NCBI GenBank assembly: GCA_030692515.1 | Contig: JAUXZS010000024.1 | Location: forward strand, 62,001-126,000 | Direction: 5' to 3' | Source of the DNA: Bacteroidota bacterium | GTDB lineage: Bacteria; Bacteroidota; Bacteroidia; B-17B0; Aurantibacillaceae | DNA length: 64,000 bases | Shown: positions 15,807-52,204 of the stretch, in pieces | Layout of the letters: each line of letters opens with the position of its first letter | Position numbering within the stretch: the stretch's first letter is position 1 | Made by a program: the position numbers and the translations under genes | The notes under the pieces: model-generated | The model's database searches: none | Seen by the model: only the letters and a program-made list of their open reading frames with translations | What the model was told of the DNA's origin: nothing

Positions 15807-18683
15807 TTAACCTTTTAATTCTTTTTTTAAAAATGGAGCTGTATAGCTTCTTTTTTCTTTTATCAACTCTTCCGGAGTACCGGCAAATAAAATTTCTCCG
15901 CCACCTTTACCGCCTTCCGGTCCAAGGTCGATAATATGATCTGCCACTTTAATGATATCCATATTATGTTCTATTACTAAAACAGTATTGCCATTATTTA
16001 CCAAACGGTAAAGTACTACTAATAAAATACGAATATCTTCAAAGTGTAAACCTGTAGTTGGTTCATCCAAAATATAAAAAGTATTTCCTGTATCGCGTTT
16101 ACTTAATTCGGTTGCTAGTTTTACACGCTGCGCCTCTCCTCCACTTAATGTCGTAGCCTGTTGCCCAAGTGTAATATATCCCAATCCAACATCCTGCAAT
16201 GTTTTTATTTGTCGGAAAATAGTTGGAACCATTTCAAAAAACTCACAAGCCTGATCAATTGTCATGTTTAAGACATCAGAAATAGATTTTCCTTTATATC
16301 TTATTTCTAACGTTTCGCGGTTATAACGTTTACCATTACATACATCGCAACCCACATAAACATCGGGTAAAAAATTCATTTCAATTGTTTTAACACCCGC
16401 TCCACCGCAAGTTTCGCATCGTCCACCTTTTACATTAAACGAAAAGCGACCGGGTTTATAGCCCCGAATTTTAGCCTCGGGTAATTCTGCAAATAAACTT
16501 CTTATATCTGAAAAAACATTTGTGTAGGTTGCAGGATTACTGCGTGGTGTTCTGCCAATTGGAGATTGGTCAATCTCAATTACTTTATCAACATTATCCA
16601 ACCCTGTAATTGATTTATAAGCTAAAGGTTTTTTTTCTGAGTTATAAAAATGTGCAGATAACAAAGGATATAAGGTTCCATTAATTAAACTACTTTTTCC
16701 ACTTCCACTTACTCCTGTTACGCAAATAAATTTACCTAAAGGAAAATCAACATTTACATTTTTTAAATTGTGGCCAGTGCAACCTTTTAGAGTTATTTTT
16801 TTACCGTTTCCCTTTCGTCTTTCTTTTGGAATTTCAATTTTAAATTTACCGGTAATATATTTTGCAGTAACGGTATCAAACTTTAACATCTCTTTTGGAG
16901 TTGCCGCTGCAACTACTCTACCACCGTGTATTCCGGCACCAGGACCAATATCAATTAAATAGTCGCACTCCATCATCATATCTTTATCATGCTCAACAAC
17001 TAAAACACTATTACCAACATCGCGTAAATTTTTTAATGCAGTAATTAAACGCACATTATCGCGTTGATGCAAACCAATACTAGGTTCATCTAAAATATAT
17101 AACACACCAACCAATTGCGAACCAATTTGGGTAGCTAAACGAATACGCTGAGCCTCGCCCCCACTAAGTGTTTTAGAAGATCTATTTATGGTAACGTAAT
17201 CTAAACCAACTTCCATTAAAAATTGAATACGAGAACGAATTTCTTTTAAAACTTCTACTGCAATTGTATTTTGAGTTTTAGTTAATTTTTTTTCTACATC
17301 CTTAAACCAAAGTTGTAAAACAGAAATATCCATTTCTGATAATTCAGCAATATTTTTATCGGCAATTTTAAAATAAAGCGATTCTTTTTTTAATCTTGTG
17401 CCATGGCAAGTTGGGCAATCTTTTTTATTTGTAAAGCCTTGTGCCCATCGCAACATTCCTGGGCTTGGATCGTCCTCAGCCTGACGAGTAATAAAAGTAG
17501 CTACACCTTCAAAATTGGTATTATAAGTTCCACCTTCGGTAGTTACTTTAAACAATTCATCACTACCATACAATAAAACATTTACAGCTTCTTCACTTAA
17601 ATCTTCGAAAGGAGTATTTAAATTAAAATTATATACAGCGCCAATAGCTTCAAGTTGTTTAAATATCCAACCTCCTCCACTTTTTTGAGCACCAATTGGC
17701 GCAACTGCACCTTTTGCAATAGAGAGTTTTGGATTAGTCACAATTTTTGAAATATCAATTTCAGAAACTTCACCTAAGCCATTACAATTCGGACAAGCTC
17801 CATACGGAGAATTAAATGAAAATAAATTTGGTGCAGGTTCGTCATAACTAATACCACTTGTTGGACACATTAACGAGCGGCTAAAAAATCTTGGTTTTAC
17901 CGAATTAGTATTGGTTGTTTTTTTCTTTTGTTTAGTTTCTTCTTCGTGCTCAATAACCATCAAAATACCCTTACCATGTTTCATGGCAGTTTGTAATGAT
18001 TGGTTTAAACGTGATTTAATATCCGATAAAATTTCTAATCTATCAATTACAATTTCAATATCATGAATTTTGTAACGATCTACTTGCATTTTTGGTGTGA
18101 TGTCAATTATTTGTCCGTCTACTCTAACTTTATTAAAGCCGCGTTTTCGAATATCTTCAAATAGCTCGCGGTAATGACCTTTACGGGCTCTAACAATAGG
18201 AGATAATAAATTAATTTTTCTGTTTTTGTATTCGCTAATAATTAAATCGATGATTTGATCGTCACTGTATCGTACCATTTTTTCGCCAGTGACATATGAA
18301 TAAGCTTGGCCTGCACGCGCAAACAACAAGCGCATAAAATCATAAATTTCTGTAATAGTGCCAACCGTTGAGCGAGGATTTTTATTAACTGTTTTTTGCT
18401 CGATAGAAATTACAGGGCTTAGGCCTGAAATTTTATCTACATCAGGTCTTTCTAAATTCCCTAAAAATTGACGAGCATAAGATGAAAAACTTTCAATATA
18501 ACGACGTTGTCCTTCAGCATAAATTGTATCAAAGGCTAAAGAGGATTTCCCACTACCACTAAGGCCTGTAATAACAACTAATTTATTTCTTGGAATAGTT
18601 AGTGAAATATCTTTTAAGTTATGAGAACGTGCTCCAATAACTTCAATAATTTCCTCATCAACAATATTTGATTTCATATTCAA
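15807..18683 (-). CDS. uvrA: Excinuclease ABC subunit A, UvrA
   Basis: DNA-damage recognition ATPase of nucleotide excision repair. Two ABC modules are visible: Walker A GLSGSGKSS (residues about 38-46) and GVSGSGKSS (about 655), with ABC signatures TLSGGEAQRIRLA and TLSGGEAQRVKLA. The UvrA C-terminal zinc module is intact (CETCGGAG, then CDVCNGKRY). The first zinc site near residue 270 reads CPTSG instead of CxxC, a change I associate with Bacteroidota UvrA proteins rather than damage. Length 958 is normal. The ATG at 18683 gives the usual short lead-in before IEVIGARSHNLK. Confidence 0.96.
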   Translation of the reverse strand: MNMKSNIVDEEIIEVIGARSHNLKDISLTIPRNKLVVITGLSGSGKSSLAFDTIYAEGQRRYIESFSSYARQFLGNLERPDVDKISGLSPVISIEQKTVNKNPRSTVGTITEIYDFMRLLFARAGQAYSYVTGEKMVRYSDDQIIDLIISEYKNRKINLLSPIVRARKGHYRELFEDIRKRGFNKVRVDGQIIDITPKMQVDRYKIHDIEIVIDRLEILSDIKSRLNQSLQTAMKHGKGILMVIEHEEETKQKKKTTNTNSVKPRFFSRSLMCPTSGISYDEPAPNLFSFNSPYGACPNCNGLGEVSEIDISKIVTNPKLSIAKGAVAPIGAQKSGGGWIFKQLEAIGAVYNFNLNTPFEDLSEEAVNVLLYGSDELFKVTTEGGTYNTNFEGVATFITRQAEDDPSPGMLRWAQGFTNKKDCPTCHGTRLKKESLYFKIADKNIAELSEMDISVLQLWFKDVEKKLTKTQNTIAVEVLKEIRSRIQFLMEVGLDYVTINRSSKTLSGGEAQRIRLATQIGSQLVGVLYILDEPSIGLHQRDNVRLITALKNLRDVGNSVLVVEHDKDMMMECDYLIDIGPGAGIHGGRVVAAATPKEMLKFDTVTAKYITGKFKIEIPKERRKGNGKKITLKGCTGHNLKNVNVDFPLGKFICVTGVSGSGKSSLINGTLYPLLSAHFYNSEKKPLAYKSITGLDNVDKVIEIDQSPIGRTPRSNPATYTNVFSDIRSLFAELPEAKIRGYKPGRFSFNVKGGRCETCGGAGVKTIEMNFLPDVYVGCDVCNGKRYNRETLEIRYKGKSISDVLNMTIDQACEFFEMVPTIFRQIKTLQDVGLGYITLGQQATTLSGGEAQRVKLATELSKRDTGNTFYILDEPTTGLHFEDIRILLVVLYRLVNNGNTVLVIEHNMDIIKVADHIIDLGPEGGKGGGEILFAGTPEELIKEKRSYTAPFLKKELKG

Positions 18684-33067: not shown

Positions 33068-33619
33068 TTAGGCTCTAATTAATATGTTTTTTCCTATTTG
33101 TTCTTTTAATTTTTCGCGTGCAGCATTTAGGTGCCACTTAGAAGTTCCTTCGCTAATTCCTAGTAGCTCGCCTACTTCTTTGTGCGAGTAACCATCAATA
33201 ACATACAAGTTAAATACTTGTTTTGTTGCATTTGGCAATTTATTTATCTCCTCATAAATTTGCTTACAGCTAATATTACTAAGAGCATCGTTAACGTCAG
33301 CATAATCACAAGAATCGTAATATTCTTCAACATACGTAACGCGTTCTTTTTCTCGTTTTTGTTTTCTGTATTCATCAATCAAAGTATTTACCATTATACG
33401 GCGTATCCATACTTTAAATGGAATTTCAGGTTTATAAATATTAATGTTTTTTAAAATTTTTAGAAACCCCATATTTAAAATTTCAGAGGCTGTATCCTTA
33501 TCTTTGTTATATCTCAAACAAATGCTCATTAAATAACTGTACGAAACTTTATATAATTCATACTCCGCCCTTCGGTCCTGCTTAGCGCACAATGCAATAA
33601 GTTCTGGCGTAATATTCAT
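33068..33619 (-). CDS. ECF-type RNA polymerase sigma factor
   Basis: Region 2 lies at residues about 22-90 (SICLRYNKDKDTASEILNMGFLKILKNI, FKVWIRRIMVNTLIDEYRK) and region 4 at about 120-175 (INKLPNATKQVFNLYVIDGYSHKEVGELLGIS, with a helix-turn-helix ending EGTSKWHLNAAREKL). It is 183 residues, typical for ECF factors. The next gene encodes an anti-sigma-like membrane protein, so this factor is probably held at the membrane until a signal arrives. Targets are unknown; its own operon is the likeliest. Confidence 0.92.
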   Translation of the reverse strand: MNITPELIALCAKQDRRAEYELYKVSYSYLMSICLRYNKDKDTASEILNMGFLKILKNINIYKPEIPFKVWIRRIMVNTLIDEYRKQKREKERVTYVEEYYDSCDYADVNDALSNISCKQIYEEINKLPNATKQVFNLYVIDGYSHKEVGELLGISEGTSKWHLNAAREKLKEQIGKNILIRA

Positions 33620-35775: not shown

Positions 35776-35801
35776 CAAAAAAACCCCGCCAAAGGCAGGG
35801 T
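35776..35801 (-). terminator. Rho-independent terminator of the Sia-type operon
   Basis: ACCCCGCC-AAA-GGCAGGGT forms a GC-rich hairpin and the minus strand then reads a run of seven Ts. It lies 22 bp after the siaC-like stop. Confidence 0.83.
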
Positions 35802-35823: not shown

Positions 35824-36204
35824 TTATTCAGCAACCATTACCATTTTAAATGGCACGTTGATGATGGCTTGATAATCTTCGCCAGCTTCTAACATATCCT
35901 CATCATCTTCTTCATAATGCCAGTGAATTGTTACAGCACTACCACCTTTATTAATTCCTTCTAATTTCTTAAATACATCTAATATGCATTTTGAAGATGA
36001 AGTATTAAAATACTCTAACTGTACATTTACTGTTGTTGCAGGCTTTGTGGCGCTAGAATACTTGTCTAATGCGTCTACTAAGGGTTTATAAAATTCGATT
36101 GAATTCTCAGGGATTGAACGTCCTTTGATTTCTAAAACTCCACCATTTAAGTCAAAGCTGATACTTGGTGTTTTTGGTGTGCCTTCGATAGCGTATTTGT
36201 CCAT
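35824..36204 (-). CDS. SiaC-family (DUF1987) regulatory phosphoprotein
   Basis: A 126-residue soluble protein: TPKTPSISFD and LEIKGRSIPENSIEFYKPL are the DUF1987 signature, and LEYFNTSSSKCILDVFKKL carries T68, which matches in position the phosphorylated threonine I recall for P. aeruginosa SiaC. In that system SiaB phosphorylates SiaC, SiaA dephosphorylates it, and free SiaC activates a diguanylate cyclase. Here the siaB-like gene lies 11 bp upstream. No cyclase is in the window, so the downstream target is open. Confidence 0.85.
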   Translation of the reverse strand: MDKYAIEGTPKTPSISFDLNGGVLEIKGRSIPENSIEFYKPLVDALDKYSSATKPATTVNVQLEYFNTSSSKCILDVFKKLEGINKGGSAVTIHWHYEEDDEDMLEAGEDYQAIINVPFKMVMVAE

Positions 36205-36215
36205 ATTTGTATTTT

Positions 36216-36764
36216 TTAATTTTGTTGTGATACTTTTATATTAAGTGTAAAGAAAGAAACTTTATTGTCAATTTCCAAAAAATCGTACTCTAATTTTTCA
36301 CCAGTTTTTCTGGCAATATCAATCATCCCTAGTCCACCCCCGCCCTTTAACGACATTTCGCCGTTATTAAGAACTTGTTTATAATATTCCTTTAATTCTT
36401 CTTTAGACAAAGAATTTACTTCGTCTAATCGAACCTTTAAACCATTAATATTCTCATTTAAAATATAATTACCCGTAAAAATTGAATATTTACCGTCTAA
36501 TTTACCAATCATGAATATCGCAGATCGATTACTATCTCCAGAAAAGTTTGATGAATCATCTAAATGGTGATATAAATTTTGTAGACATTCAACCAGAACG
36601 TTGTAAACCTTTTTTTTCATTTTAGGCTCTTCCTGCATATTTTCCATCTTATTCTCCATTATTTGAAGAATAGAGGTTAGTAGGTCTGAAGTAATTTCGC
36701 CTTTAAATGAAAGCAAAATATTATTTCGCTCCATTTTATTATATATATCAAATACATCTACCAT
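36216..36764 (-). CDS. SiaB-family protein kinase (GHKL-like, DUF6272)
   Basis: An anti-sigma-kinase-like fold: the N box is VECLQNLYHHLDD (E59, N63), and the glycine loop is LKGGGGLGMIDIARKTG (G141-G146). These are the ATP-lid features of SiaB, which phosphorylates SiaC. No membrane segment. It is encoded directly before the siaC-like gene and two genes after a SpoIIE phosphatase, which completes a kinase/phosphatase/substrate set in one operon. Confidence 0.83.
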   Translation of the reverse strand: MVDVFDIYNKMERNNILLSFKGEITSDLLTSILQIMENKMENMQEEPKMKKKVYNVLVECLQNLYHHLDDSSNFSGDSNRSAIFMIGKLDGKYSIFTGNYILNENINGLKVRLDEVNSLSKEELKEYYKQVLNNGEMSLKGGGGLGMIDIARKTGEKLEYDFLEIDNKVSFFTLNIKVSQQN

Positions 36765-36802
36765 GTTTGGTTCAACCGAAGTTTGTTGCGGAATATCAAT
36801 AT

Positions 36803-37660
36803 TTAGTTTAGTGTAAATGCTACTGTGCTTCCGTTAACGGTAAATGTTGCCTTATTATCGCAAGTGCCATCGCCAAAATCAACTGTTCTGGTTTTAAATC
36901 CATCTGGTGTTAGTTCAAAAATTCCTTTGTCAATCCATTTGCAAAGTTTATGCTTAACTAATGGAGTAGCTTGAGGAATAACAACTGTAAAAGCCTTACC
37001 AACACGATTAACACCGTTTGTTGTTCCATAAATCTCGGCAACCGGATCGGTATTTACTGGATTTCCTTTTGGATAAAAAGTAATTGTTCTATCTAATTCA
37101 TACTTAATATTCCAATTAGCGTTTTGGCAAACACCCTTGTATAATTTCACGTTAAATGTAGTTGCAAATGTTGAAGATGAAATAGTTTTTACTACCATAC
37201 TGTCACATGAATAAGATATTCCAGCAGCATTATAGTTGATCATGGTGATTATCATTTTTGAACCTGCATTTTTAATTTTACCCGTTAATTTAATTTGCAT
37301 CTTACCCCCTCTTACTCTTCCATCAGGCATAGTATTAGCACAAGCTGATGAGGAGATATTCATTGTATAAACGGGGTATGAAGCTGGATTGGTGAAAAGT
37401 GTATCTCCAGAAATTAAGGTTAATGTATCACAAGGTGGAGCTATAGCAAAAGTCATTCTATTTCCGCCGGTACCTTTTGTATTAATTGCATGCCCATTTA
37501 CTGAAGGAACAATTGACATATATTCTTGATCTGCAACGGCATTATCAACAGCGGATTGTGTTTCATTATCAACTTCAACAGTTTCTTTTTTACGACATCC
37601 CATAAAAAATAAAGATGTTGTGAAACTCAAAACTAAAAAAATATTAAAGACTTTTTTCAT
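36803..37660 (-). CDS. Lipoprotein of unknown function in the Sia-type operon
   Basis: Lipoprotein signal peptide with lipobox FFMGC and C22. The mature part is beta-rich and has paired cysteines (PPCDTLT, SSACANT, SYSCDS, GVCQN, HKLCKW, DGTCDN) that could form disulfides; it includes a repeated pattern of ordered strands with TFYPKGNPV and ends in TVNGSTVAFTLN. No domain is recognised. It sits 38 bp before the kinase gene and 58 bp after the sensor phosphatase gene, so it may present a signal to the sensor, but that is a guess. Confidence 0.65.
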   Translation of the reverse strand: MKKVFNIFLVLSFTTSLFFMGCRKKETVEVDNETQSAVDNAVADQEYMSIVPSVNGHAINTKGTGGNRMTFAIAPPCDTLTLISGDTLFTNPASYPVYTMNISSSACANTMPDGRVRGGKMQIKLTGKIKNAGSKMIITMINYNAAGISYSCDSMVVKTISSSTFATTFNVKLYKGVCQNANWNIKYELDRTITFYPKGNPVNTDPVAEIYGTTNGVNRVGKAFTVVIPQATPLVKHKLCKWIDKGIFELTPDGFKTRTVDFGDGTCDNKATFTVNGSTVAFTLN

Positions 37661-37718
37661 TGATTTTTTTTAAAGTTAGACAAATATAATAAAATAATTT
37701 AAATTCCAAAACATACGA

Positions 37719-40700
37719 TTAAATTCCTATTCCCACTACCAAAACATCATCCACTTGCTCATGATTTTGTCGCCACTGCTCGAAGTTATTAATCAATTCT
37801 TTTCTCTGTTCTTCAGGCCTTCTTAGGTGAATCGTAAGCAATAATTCATGAAAACGTTTAACCATAAATTTTTTACCCCTTTGCCCGCCGAATTGATCGG
37901 CATAACCATCGGTTGTTAAATAGGCCATTGCAGGATTTTTTAATTTAACTGCTTGAGTAGTAAAAACCCTATTTATATCTAATTGAGCGCCGCCAACGGG
38001 AAATTTATTTCCATCAAATTTCAAAAACTCGCCAGTAGAATCTATTGTAATTAATGGTCTGTTTGCGCCCGCCCACATTACTTCGTGTGTAATATCATTA
38101 ATAACAATTAATGACACATCCATACCATCATTAGTATTTACTTCATTTTGTCCTTGTCTTAATGCATCTTGAACACCTTTATGCAACTGATTTAAAATAT
38201 TTCCGGGGTCGGTTATTCCCTTTTCTGAAACTATTTGATGTAATAAATTATGGCCAATCATGCTCATAAATGCTCCTGGTACGCCATGCCCAGTGCAATC
38301 TACAATAGCCAAAATCTTAAAATCATTTTTTTCGGCAAACCAATAAAAATCACCGCTTACTATATCTTTTGGTTGATACAAAATAAATGCATCTTTTAAT
38401 TTCTTAAAGATTTGATCCTTGGATGGCAAAATTGCTTCTTGAATTCGCTTTGCGTATTCTATACTACTGGTAATGTCATTATTTTTCTCTTCTAATTCTC
38501 GTGTTCGCTCTGCAACCTTATTCTCAAGAATTTTATTTTCTTTTTTTATTGCGCCTGTTCTATATTGTGTAAAAGCATATATACTTCCTCCAGCAAAAAT
38601 GATTAATAAAAAATAAAATAATTTTGTTTTCCAAAAAGGAGGAACTACATTGATGGTAATCTCATAAGGTTTTTCATTCCAAATACCATCATTGTTGGTA
38701 GACTTTACAAGAAATTTATATTCTCCACCAGGCAATTCGGTATATGAAACATATCGCACGTTAGTGGGTTCAGACCAGTCATCATCGTAACCCTCTAATT
38801 TATACTTAAATTTATTTTTTGAAGGCTCTATATAATCTAAACTTGCTAGTTCGAATTGAAAATAATTTTCGCGCCAACTAATATTTAAATATTTTTTATA
38901 GGCAATAAACGAATCAATAACAACATCTTTGCCGCCTCGTTTGTAAGCAATAATAAAAGCGTTGGGAGTGTGTAAATTATCTTTTATTGCTGATGGTTTA
39001 AAAATATTGTAGCCATTGGATCCACCGAAATACATATTACCACTTTCTGAAACAAAGGCGGCGCCCATATTATATTCCGAATTTAACAAACCATCTTTTA
39101 TTCCATAATTTTTAAAAATTATTTCGCTTTCTTTTAGTAAAGGATTAAATTTTATTAAACCAGAGTTTGAACTCATCCAAAAATTATTCAAACTATCCTT
39201 TAATATCGAATACAAATAAGTATTTGCTAAACCGTCTTTTTCATAAAAATTATAAAATTTATTTTCAGGCAACAATTTACTTAAACCTGCCGACGTTGCA
39301 ACCCATATGTTACCTTTAACATCTTCATTAACACCAAAAACAATATTAGTTGCAATGTTTTCAGTACTACCCTCATTTTTATAAACCTGATCAATATTCA
39401 ATTTATTTCCCTCAGGAAAAGAATTTAGCTTAATTAATCCTCCATCATAAGTTCCAATCCATACTTTTCCTTTCGAATCGGCAAAAATTGAATTAACATT
39501 TAAATTGGTCAAACCTTGTTCTGCACCAAAATGGGTTGTAGCAAAACTTTTTAAATTAATCTTAAATAAACCATCTCCAAAAGTTCCCGCATATAAATTT
39601 CCTTTATCATCTGCTTTTAAACAAATTACTGTGCCTCCAAAATCTTTGCTCAAGAACCATCTATATCTATTAGTGCTTTTATCGTATCTAATAAGACCCT
39701 TTCCCCATGTTCCAATCCAATAAATATTTTCATTTTCGGGGAAAATACAAAGGGCAGTATTACCATCAAGAATTGAAGAACGGTCAATTATTTCTTTGTT
39801 TTTATTTAAAAAAATCAATGTGTTTTCGCCACCAATAATTCTTTCATTGTTTTTAGTTTCAGAAAAGGAATATAAATTTTTTAAATCGTTTTGTTTATCA
39901 CCTTCACCATCTGGGAATTTTATTGATTTAGGGAAAGAAACATTTACACCCCCTAAATAAGTACCTAACCAAATATTTTTTTCTTTATCAAAAAACACTT
40001 CTTTAATCAAATCATCGTTTATTCTAAAAGTACTTGAGTTTTCCTTATTAGTTACGCTAATTATTTTATTAGACAATAAGTTATAAGTAACTAAGCCATC
40101 ATTTGTTGCTGCATATATTTTACTATTATCTATCACTAAATTATTTACTTCATTAATATTCTTTCCCGGTAAATTATTAAATAAAATTTTATCTTCAATT
40201 TCAAAATCAGTTAGATTTAAAGTAAATATTCCATAGCCAATTGTACCAATATATAATTTACCTGCATATTCATACAAACACCTAATAGACTCTAGTTCTG
40301 AAGTTTTAAAATTTAAATGATCTGGTTTAAAAAAATTAATTCTTTCTAATTCATCATTCTGTAACACCCACAAACCCTTTTCTCTGGTACCAATGAAAAA
40401 ATTTTTATTTACTTTTTTGATGCAATCAACTTGAATAGAATTTGTAATTGGAAAATTATACTTCTTAATTAATTTTGAAGGGATATTCAGCGAAAATAAT
40501 CCTTCATCACTTCCAACTAAAATATTATCGTTATTTAATACTTCTATAAAATTGATTTTTACATTAGCCCCCTTTAAATTATTAAGGCGGGTAAACTTTA
40601 GGGTTATTGGATTAAATAAATTAAGTCCGTCTCTAGTTCCAATAACAATTAAATCAGCTTTAATTTGTTTTAAACAAGTAATCTCCGAACTTGATAATGA

Positions 40701-40973
40701 ATTTATGGAAGTAGGGTCATTTTTAAAAACAGTAATATTATACCCATCATATTTATTCAAGCCATCTTGCGTTCCAAACCACATAAAACCTTTATCATCT
40801 TGAATTATAGAGGTAACATAATTGGTGCTTAATCCATCTTCATTGGTGATTTGCTTAAATCGATATTGTTGCGAATACGAAAAACTCGTTATAGCAAAAA
40901 GCAATGCAAAAAAAATATATTTAAAACGCTTCAAAATTAAAAAACTAATATAATTATAATTTACACATTTCAA
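37719..40973 (-). CDS. Beta-propeller sensor with SpoIIE-type PP2C phosphatase (SiaA-like)
   Basis: Order of parts: signal peptide; about 14 two-bladed-propeller (Reg_prop) repeats with WFGTQDGLNKYDG-type motifs (residues about 25-680); a Y_Y_Y domain (about 690-775, with YKLEGYDDDWSEPTNVRYVSY); one membrane helix (about 781-802); a coiled coil (about 805-840); and a SpoIIE/PP2C phosphatase (about 860-1084) with SGDFYWFAEKND and VDCTGHGVPGAFMSMIG, whose aspartates bind the metal. The sensor head resembles those of hybrid two-component regulators, but the output is a Ser/Thr phosphatase. The start is TTG 40973; a TTG at 40934 would give a cleaner signal peptide (KRFKYIFFALLFA). Confidence 0.85.
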   Translation of the reverse strand: MKCVNYNYISFLILKRFKYIFFALLFAITSFSYSQQYRFKQITNEDGLSTNYVTSIIQDDKGFMWFGTQDGLNKYDGYNITVFKNDPTSINSLSSSEITCLKQIKADLIVIGTRDGLNLFNPITLKFTRLNNLKGANVKINFIEVLNNDNILVGSDEGLFSLNIPSKLIKKYNFPITNSIQVDCIKKVNKNFFIGTREKGLWVLQNDELERINFFKPDHLNFKTSELESIRCLYEYAGKLYIGTIGYGIFTLNLTDFEIEDKILFNNLPGKNINEVNNLVIDNSKIYAATNDGLVTYNLLSNKIISVTNKENSSTFRINDDLIKEVFFDKEKNIWLGTYLGGVNVSFPKSIKFPDGEGDKQNDLKNLYSFSETKNNERIIGGENTLIFLNKNKEIIDRSSILDGNTALCIFPENENIYWIGTWGKGLIRYDKSTNRYRWFLSKDFGGTVICLKADDKGNLYAGTFGDGLFKINLKSFATTHFGAEQGLTNLNVNSIFADSKGKVWIGTYDGGLIKLNSFPEGNKLNIDQVYKNEGSTENIATNIVFGVNEDVKGNIWVATSAGLSKLLPENKFYNFYEKDGLANTYLYSILKDSLNNFWMSSNSGLIKFNPLLKESEIIFKNYGIKDGLLNSEYNMGAAFVSESGNMYFGGSNGYNIFKPSAIKDNLHTPNAFIIAYKRGGKDVVIDSFIAYKKYLNISWRENYFQFELASLDYIEPSKNKFKYKLEGYDDDWSEPTNVRYVSYTELPGGEYKFLVKSTNNDGIWNEKPYEITINVVPPFWKTKLFYFLLIIFAGGSIYAFTQYRTGAIKKENKILENKVAERTRELEEKNNDITSSIEYAKRIQEAILPSKDQIFKKLKDAFILYQPKDIVSGDFYWFAEKNDFKILAIVDCTGHGVPGAFMSMIGHNLLHQIVSEKGITDPGNILNQLHKGVQDALRQGQNEVNTNDGMDVSLIVINDITHEVMWAGANRPLITIDSTGEFLKFDGNKFPVGGAQLDINRVFTTQAVKLKNPAMAYLTTDGYADQFGGQRGKKFMVKRFHELLLTIHLRRPEEQRKELINNFEQWRQNHEQVDDVLVVGIGI

Positions 40974-50737: not shown

Positions 50738-51469
50738 ATGAACAGCGCCGAATGGTTTAAAGATTGGTTTAATTCTCCTTATTATCATTTATTGTACAAC
50801 AACCGAAATGAAAATGAGGCTAAATTTTTTATCGACAATCTTTGTTCTCACTTAAATTTACAACCAAATGCAAATGTATGGGATTTAGCCTGCGGAAAAG
50901 GAAGACACGCTGTATGCTTAAACAATAAAGGCTATAAAGTTGTTGGAACAGATTTATCAAAAAATAGTATTAAAGAAGCTTCACAATATAGCAATGCAAC
51001 TTTAGATTTTTATGTGCATGATATGCGCGAACCATTTAGAATTAATTACTTTGACGCCGTTTTTAATTTATTTACTAGCATTGGGTATTTTGAAAATTTT
51101 AATGATAATTTTTCAGTCTTTAAAAATATTGCTAACTCCTTAAAACCAAACGGAGTGTTTGTAATTGATTTTTTTAATTCTAAAAAAGTAGCTTCAACGC
51201 TAAAAACTGATTATATCGAACAAAGAGGTGATATTACTTTTAAAATAAAAAAGCAAATCGCAAATAATGCAATCTCTAAAAGAATTGAATTTAATGCTAA
51301 TAACCATCAATATTACTTCGAAGAATCTGTTTCTTTATTAAAAAAAGAAGACTTTGAAAACTTCGCTAAAAAAGCGGGATTTAAAATTGAAAGTGTATTT
51401 GGAAATTACAATTTAGAGCCATTTGATGAAAATAAATCTGAACGATTAATAATTATCTTTAAAAAATAA
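50738..51469 (+). CDS. Class I SAM-dependent methyltransferase
   Basis: Motif I is VWDLACGKGRHAVCLNNKGYKVVGTDLS (residues about 46-73), followed by a FDAVFNLFTSIGYFEN motif IV-type strand and LKPNGVFVIDFFN. The protein resembles small-molecule methyltransferases; the substrate cannot be told. Its start is 3 genes upstream of priA and spacings to the next genes are 3 and -1 bp, so these form one operon. Confidence 0.8.
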   Translation: MNSAEWFKDWFNSPYYHLLYNNRNENEAKFFIDNLCSHLNLQPNANVWDLACGKGRHAVCLNNKGYKVVGTDLSKNSIKEASQYSNATLDFYVHDMREPFRINYFDAVFNLFTSIGYFENFNDNFSVFKNIANSLKPNGVFVIDFFNSKKVASTLKTDYIEQRGDITFKIKKQIANNAISKRIEFNANNHQYYFEESVSLLKKEDFENFAKKAGFKIESVFGNYNLEPFDENKSERLIIIFKK

Positions 51470-51472
51470 ACT

Positions 51473-52204
51473 TTGAACCCATTACTCTCTATACTTGGCT
51501 TAATTGCCCCTATTCTATTCGCTGGTGGAATTGCATTAAAAATTAAAATTAATCAGGTTAATTTAAGATTATTATTAGCATTTAGCGCTGCTTATTTATT
51601 TGCATTAGCAATCATCCATTTATTACCCGAAGCATTTGCTTTAGGTAATGTAAAACAAATGGGCTTATTTATTGTTCTTGGTTTTTGTATACAATTACTA
51701 ATTGATACTTTCAGTACCGGCATAGAGCATGGTCACGTGCACTTACATAGCAGCGAATGTAAAAAGCATTTACCAAACGGAATAATAATTGGTCTTTTAT
51801 TGCATTCTTATTTAGAGGGCTTACCAATTTATAATTTAAGTAGCGATTATTCCTCCACAATTAATAATCAATTAATTTTAGGCTTAGCCATGCACAATAT
51901 TCCAATAACAATTGCTTTTGTTTCCTTATTAAAAGAGCATGAATCAAAAAACTCAAAGAAATGGGCTTTGCTTTTACTTTTCTCAATAATGACACCACTA
52001 GGTTATTTAAGTAGTTATATTTTGCAAACTTTTGGATTACATAATTATGAAATCTATAGTCAAATTGCTTTTGCAATTGTTATCGGTATTTTCTTACACA
52101 TATCTACAGCTATTTTATTTGAAACAAGTGAGCATCATAAATACAACAAAACAAAAGTGTTAATGATGGCCGGAGGAATAATTTTAGCCTATTTAATTAG
52201 TTAA
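51473..52204 (+). CDS. ZIP family divalent metal transporter
   Basis: Seven to eight hydrophobic stretches, with a His-rich loop (HGHVHLH) and the ZIP metal-path motifs in a divergent form: HSYLEGLPIYNL in TM4 and MHNIPITIAFV in TM5. The transported metal, likely zinc or iron, cannot be read from sequence. The start is TTG at 51473, 3 bp after the methyltransferase stop, and the stop overlaps the priA start by one base. Confidence 0.78.
   Translation: MNPLLSILGLIAPILFAGGIALKIKINQVNLRLLLAFSAAYLFALAIIHLLPEAFALGNVKQMGLFIVLGFCIQLLIDTFSTGIEHGHVHLHSSECKKHLPNGIIIGLLLHSYLEGLPIYNLSSDYSSTINNQLILGLAMHNIPITIAFVSLLKEHESKNSKKWALLLLFSIMTPLGYLSSYILQTFGLHNYEIYSQIAFAIVIGIFLHISTAILFETSEHHKYNKTKVLMMAGGIILAYLIS

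Follow-up and report, generated by a model that had tools for sequence, protein, structure and literature searches.

A Sia-type phosphorylation operon of Bacteroidia with an ABC exporter as candidate output

RESULTS

A four-gene operon with Sia-type products

The DNA analysed here is a 64,000-nucleotide stretch of a Bacteroidota genome (contig JAUXZS010000024.1, positions 62,001 to 126,000), referred to below as the window. Between 40973 and 35824 it carries four open reading frames (ORFs) on the minus strand, for a membrane phosphatase, a lipoprotein, a SiaB-family kinase and SiaC, which form one operon with intergenic gaps of 58, 38 and 11 bp from the phosphatase gene towards siaC. The operon very probably constitutes a Sia-type phosphorylation switch akin to the SiaABCD system described in Pseudomonas aeruginosa (PMC7647112, PMC8457831), and it may gate an ATP-binding cassette (ABC) exporter. 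The features of the locus are as follows.

37719..40973, minus strand: membrane phosphatase with signal peptide, Reg_prop propeller, Y_Y_Y domain, one transmembrane segment and a cytoplasmic SpoIIE/PP2C domain
36803..37660, minus strand: lipoprotein of 285 amino acids (aa) with lipobox cysteine C22; a fast-evolving, conserved fourth gene
36216..36764, minus strand: SiaB-family protein kinase of 182 aa, with E59 in VECLQN and a GGGGLG glycine box
35824..36204, minus strand: SiaC-type phosphoprotein of 126 aa, with phosphosite T68 within YFNTSSSK
35783..35801, minus strand: intrinsic-terminator-like hairpin of 8 pairs, 6 of them GC, followed by six T, between siaC and fba

SiaC matches its Pfam family with an E-value of 1.3e-42 (144.7 bits, cut-off 24.5) and the solved structures 6kko, 6kkp, 7e6g and 6k4f at 2.8e-19. 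T68, at residue 68, is invariant in a 15-member alignment and is a threonine in 78 of 80 Bacteroidia SiaC sequences from the scan described below, one of whose seeds covers this motif. SiaB is recognised by Pfam DUF6272 (1.1e-42) and by NCBIfam NF038262, SiaB_fam_kinase (169.4 bits, cut-off 85), and matches 6kko_A of the Protein Data Bank at 2.7e-20. Its N-box E59 and its GGGGLG box are invariant in the family alignment, and E59 is the predicted catalytic glutamate, equivalent to E61 of the P. aeruginosa protein. In the phosphatase, Reg_prop (6e-24), Y_Y_Y (8e-18) and SpoIIE (1.6e-16; 61.3 bits, cut-off 25) were all found, the last at residues ~880-1084 with the catalytic motifs SGDFYW, DCTGHG and TDG present, and there are two hydrophobic segments, at residues ~9-29 and ~783-804. 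Translation of this protein probably starts at the TTG of codon 14 (~40934), the point at which many orthologues begin. These domain matches and motifs confirm the identity of the three Sia-type proteins, including T68 of SiaC, and the periplasmic sensor on the phosphatase, as proposed in a preliminary description of the locus. The strong terminator that it placed at the operon end was supported in part: the hairpin and its T run are well positioned, but as a single match they are within what the scan would return by chance.

Like SiaABCD of P. aeruginosa, the operon brings together a SpoIIE/PP2C phosphatase, a SiaB kinase and a T68-bearing SiaC, homologous to solved structures, and residues 808-1081 of the phosphatase align with 378-654 of the SiaA model NF038263. 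It differs in the propeller/Y_Y_Y sensor on the phosphatase, in the additional lipoprotein gene, and in lacking SiaD, with no GGDEF domain in the genome and the SiaD-facing residues of SiaC replaced. The scores stay below the equivalog cut-offs of SiaA (188 against 700 bits), SiaB (94.9 against 225) and SiaC (92.5 against 150), so that we regard the set as Sia-type and not as a member of P. aeruginosa SiaABCD. Similarity to the cyanobacterial slr1658/slr1659 superfamily is weak and far below cut-offs for both SiaB (E 2e-4) and SiaC (0.03). Bacteroidota also possess Reg_prop/Y_Y_Y hybrid two-component sensors, built from a periplasmic propeller, a Y_Y_Y domain and one transmembrane segment. The phosphatase has the same layout up to the membrane, but its output domain is a SpoIIE phosphatase, whereas theirs is a histidine kinase.

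Of the seven cysteines in the lipoprotein, only C22 of the lipobox, C240 and C267 are invariant in the family. The predicted structure combines helix and beta elements, and a comparison of this model with solved folds gave no Foldseek match at E<=0.001. A structural aligner returned beta-barrels and OSBP-type folds (Z <=9.5, root-mean-square deviation ~4-7 A) with no consistent family, which we leave uninterpreted. Two paralogues in the same genome, 28-29% identical, are located away from Sia genes (L085:7477-8325 and L086:7122-8075; L numbers denote loci).

Conservation of the gene set

A search of relatives covered 60 genomes, the window's own included. The order SpoIIE-lipoprotein-siaB-siaC runs through most of the genus, with some partial sets, and the lipoprotein is present in 50 of the 60 genomes. 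The same four-gene order was found in at least five other families (L109, L110, L112, L114 and L115). The lipoprotein gene, previously described as inserted in the operon, is thus better regarded as its conserved fourth member. In the literature searched, neither this gene order nor a Sia system in Bacteroidota has been described, Pseudomonas SiaABCD being the only system found.

GTDB contigs were scanned with YFNTSSSK and W[HYF]YEEDD as seeds. This returned at least 563 relatives of the operon's SiaC, of which 80 were kept, nearly all from metagenome-assembled genomes of Bacteroidota. Conservation at the seed positions is biased in this set, and because the closest relatives were kept, invariance is partly due to selection even outside the seeds. 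The stable core of these loci is siaB-siaC. Complete cassettes, in which SpoIIE and lipoprotein genes are added upstream, account for 22 of the loci, and many others have unrelated upstream neighbours. Identity to the window in complete cassettes is 68-97% for SiaC, 68-98% for SiaB and 52-86% for the SpoIIE domain, against 27-70% for the propeller and 31-65% for the lipoprotein; SiaC identity goes down to 61% in L115. The propeller and the lipoprotein, on the envelope side, therefore evolve fastest, which would fit a role in sensing.

Elsewhere in the window, at 50738-52204, there are two genes of 243 aa each whose relatives lie immediately next to siaB or a Sia cassette in several other families (e.g. 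L144, L176 and L310). These neighbours are a remnant of an earlier gene order.

Absence of a cyclase and an altered SiaC surface

The lack of a diguanylate cyclase, noted earlier for the surroundings of the operon, holds on a larger scale. No GGDEF domain was detected in the window's genome or elsewhere among the 60 genomes of the relatives search, while 8 of 14 control genomes were positive. This genome and its 59 relatives being free of GGDEF, a SiaD-type cyclase is excluded as the output.

The surface of SiaC points in the same direction. In the P. aeruginosa SiaC-SiaD crystal structure, the contacts are Q10, D29, Y31, Y65, N67, T68, S69, I71, M75, D79, R103, L107, E110 and D114 (PMC8457831), and this numbering transfers to Bacteroidia SiaC without offset. 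Y65, N67, T68 and S69 are retained, but eight other contacts read P10, R29, I31, K79, D103, A107, D110 and I114. All of these except P10 are common to 78-79 of the 80 Bacteroidia sequences, an invariance that is inflated because the set was picked by similarity, although the replaced positions fall outside the two scan seeds. In an unseeded Pfam sample, SiaC proteins of other classes mostly differ from the Bacteroidia residues at these positions, and some positions, such as Y31, are nearer to Pseudomonas.

Neighbours of siaC in other classes

In other classes, the gene beside siaC often carries the pattern [KR][ILVM]x[RK][ILVM][SG]DxxQ, which was seen in 15 ORFs of unseeded loci, while the Bacteroidia loci gave none in 1,698 ORFs (570,244 residues). 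Since the pattern was derived from these same proteins and from the SiaD paper, the evidence lies in the contrast with Bacteroidia and not in the count. A profile of the N-terminal stalks that carry it matches SiaD (7e6g) at E 0.03, spanning both known SiaC-binding motifs. The stalk is joined to GGDEF, HisKA/HATPase, SpoIIE or class III cyclase domains, or occurs on its own in some proteins. Judged by these sequences, effectors of several kinds outside the Bacteroidia seem to share a SiaC-docking stalk, which makes SiaC look like a switch whose outputs can be exchanged. No stalk protein was found elsewhere in the window's genome at E<=0.1, in a search run without its own positive control.

Four loci from these classes illustrate the arrangement. 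In L197, L199, L208 and L213, siaC-adjacent genes share one N-terminal stalk and differ in output, the domains being a histidine kinase, GGDEF, SpoIIE and a class III cyclase.

An ABC exporter that tracks SiaC

The candidate target in Bacteroidia is a protein of ~1030 aa (1025 aa for the copy in the window's genome) that combines TerB, an FHA-like domain, an ABC ATPase and an ABC-2 membrane half-transporter (Pfam ABC_tran 1.4e-30, ABC2_membrane 5.8e-18). Its gene is convergent with siaBC in many loci, and the two lie <=1.5 kb apart in 30 genomes from 13 families. In family f15 (L307-L309), SpoIIE, siaB, siaC and the ABC gene follow one another on one strand, with lipoprotein and small secreted protein genes behind them, so that the ABC gene occupies the siaD position of the operon. 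The best copy in the window's genome lies at contig position 139787, 13.8 kb past the window end, and a second copy is located near another siaC, where SpoIIE and a SiaB-SiaB tandem protein are also encoded.

Co-occurrence was examined in 396 Bacteroidia genomes, of which 194 contain SiaC and 190 the ABC N-terminus. Both are present in 180 genomes, SiaC only in 14, the ABC protein only in 10 and neither in 192; counted by genus, 81 have both, 6 and 8 have a single one and 103 have neither. The corresponding Fisher p-values, 4e-81 and 2.7e-38, ignore phylogeny. In a sample of the phylum, the ABC protein occurred in all five SiaC genomes of the same class, in one other genome of that class, and in none of the 17 SiaC genomes of other classes. 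The output of the switch, previously considered open, is therefore no longer simply so: a SiaD-type cyclase is indeed lacking, but the TerB-FHA-like-ABC exporter tracks SiaC.

An AlphaFold2 model of the ABC N-terminus reached a predicted local distance difference test (pLDDT) score of 84. Its helical part resembles TerB (2h5n, Z 9.6 over 118 residues at 3.5 A) and 2ou3, annotated as tellurite resistance (Z 7.1). Residues 160-241 match FHA in VIA-align (Z 7.7, 76 residues, 2.2 A), where rows 2 to 8 are all FHA, with FHA-2 of Rv1747 at Z 6.5. This assignment of a domain N-terminal to ABC/ABC2 is a fold match alone with Z below 8, and Foldseek gave FHA probabilities of up to 1.00 with E-values of 0.02 or worse.

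Two apparent resemblances were discarded. The helix KVLKICTQIN of the ABC protein recalls the SiaD motif KV.RISDRYQ, but a SiaD-like stalk is not claimed at an hhalign probability of 0.3%. The gene at 15807-18683, which resembled the ABC protein in BLAST, is UvrA-like. Past the window end, the neighbours of the ABC gene encode a lipoprotein of 303 aa and a secreted protein of 142 aa (L306:11854-16864). Other loci have the same trio close to siaC, and neither the lipoprotein nor the secreted protein belongs to a Pfam or NCBIfam family.

Other Sia genes in the genome

The whole genome contains 8 SiaC, 7 SiaB-domain and 45 SpoIIE matches. A second close SiaC (L076:7118-7501, in G000 C44) is 64-65% identical, keeps T68 and has no adjacent siaB; nearby genes encode a response regulator-PglZ protein and a protein of 141 aa, which we take to resemble PorX and TsaE, respectively. 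Proteins of 376 and 360 aa with two tandem SiaB domains each (L079:7951-9081 and L082:8560-9642) adjoin a SiaC and SpoIIE genes. Further SiaC paralogues without siaB are found at L077:9342-9713, flanked by long secreted-protein-like genes, and at L081:10869-11273. Finally, L087 (G000 C58:78000-96000) contains six consecutive SpoIIE-domain genes.

DISCUSSION

The explanation we favour, with a probability of roughly 0.6, is a Sia-type switch that gates the TerB-FHA-like-ABC exporter. SiaB would phosphorylate SiaC at T68. The propeller would read a signal, probably with or through the lipoprotein, and turn on the SpoIIE domain, which would then dephosphorylate SiaC. Unphosphorylated SiaC would dock with its alpha2/alpha3 face, in Bacteroidia most likely on the cytoplasmic TerB and FHA-like N-terminus of the ABC half-transporter and not on a diguanylate cyclase. 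Docked SiaC would change export, so that the switch would gate some envelope or secreted substrate. That the exporter is the main output seems to us somewhat more likely than not, and we lean to a similar degree towards unphosphorylated over phosphorylated SiaC as the docking form.

The gene content, motifs, conservation, GGDEF absence, neighbourhood and co-occurrence are observations, whereas we infer from sequence the SiaC-ABC binding, all biochemical steps, the direction of control and the substrate. Several other points also weigh against the exporter as target. In the window's genus the ABC gene is not adjacent to siaC but ~41 kb away, the p-values for co-occurrence take no account of phylogeny, and the SiaC-only and ABC-only genomes exist. 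Among 16 members only one matches Pfam FHA, and weakly so (E 0.062), and hhalign gave no SiaD-type stalk in the ABC N-terminus. The numbers of SiaC, SiaB-domain and SpoIIE matches in the genome make cross-talk or other outputs possible.

SiaC might instead act on another, unlinked protein, with the ABC gene as an old neighbour of the same clade distribution. A convergent order can persist by descent, the window genes at 50738 and 51473 likewise have relatives beside siaB in several families, and several of the eight SiaC copies stand beside other SpoIIE or secreted-protein genes. Against this, presence and absence are coupled at the genus level, unlinked genes, such as those of the window's genus, show the coupling too, and f15 has the ABC gene inside the operon; we consider an unlinked target unlikely, though it deserves serious attention.

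A working analogy for the ABC protein, rather than a demonstrated homologue, is Rv1747 of Mycobacterium tuberculosis, an FHA-ABC exporter encoded in one operon with PknF, a threonine kinase (PMC3908365). Both are ABC/ABC2 exporters with an FHA-type N-terminal domain and a genetic tie to threonine phosphorylation, but the protein here has TerB and one FHA-like domain where Rv1747 has two FHA domains, and the kinase is of the SiaB type and would, unlike PknF, act on SiaC rather than on the transporter. The analogy suggests that phospho-SiaC could be the active form, its pT68 being read by the FHA-like domain, as for the Rv1747 FHA with PknF; the FHA-like fold adjoins the ABC domain, and the operon of Rv1747 with its kinase gives a precedent (PMC3908365). 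However, phosphorylation abolishes target binding in P. aeruginosa (PMC8457831), and T68 is located at a helix start and not in an extended peptide. This makes an active phospho-form unlikely.

In an anti-sigma partner switch, SiaB, which is of the HATPase-kinase kind, would be an RsbW-like anti-sigma factor and SiaC its antagonist, working for instance through the sigma-like gene at 33068-33619. SiaC is STAS-like (PMC8457831) and the genus keeps the sigma-like gene in synteny, but fba, accD and the terminator separate it from the operon, and in other families most loci do not have it next to siaBC, which leaves this scheme improbable. A classic SiaABCD system, in which SiaC activates a diguanylate cyclase with cyclic di-GMP as output, would suit the SiaA/B/C homology, but is already contradicted by the GGDEF-free genomes, with the replaced SiaD contacts and the lack of a SiaD-type stalk in the genome (in a search without its own positive control) adding to this, and can hardly be upheld.

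In the literature we found, the only known SiaC output is the Pseudomonas c-di-GMP cyclase. About half of the 396 sampled Bacteroidia genomes carry SiaC, and with no GGDEF in the 60 genomes around the window, no output had been assigned to a widespread signalling system. The ABC exporter that co-occurs with SiaC offers a concrete and directly testable target. We judge it evenly balanced whether SiaC serves as a general plug-in switch with repeatedly swapped outputs, docking on the stalk in other classes and, where the stalk has been lost in Bacteroidia, gating the TerB-FHA-like-ABC exporter; the docking stalk on four effector types would allow SiaC targets elsewhere to be predicted from sequence. 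If the proposed gating of the exporter is true, these bacteria would possess a transport pathway controlled by threonine phosphorylation and driven by propeller or other sensors.

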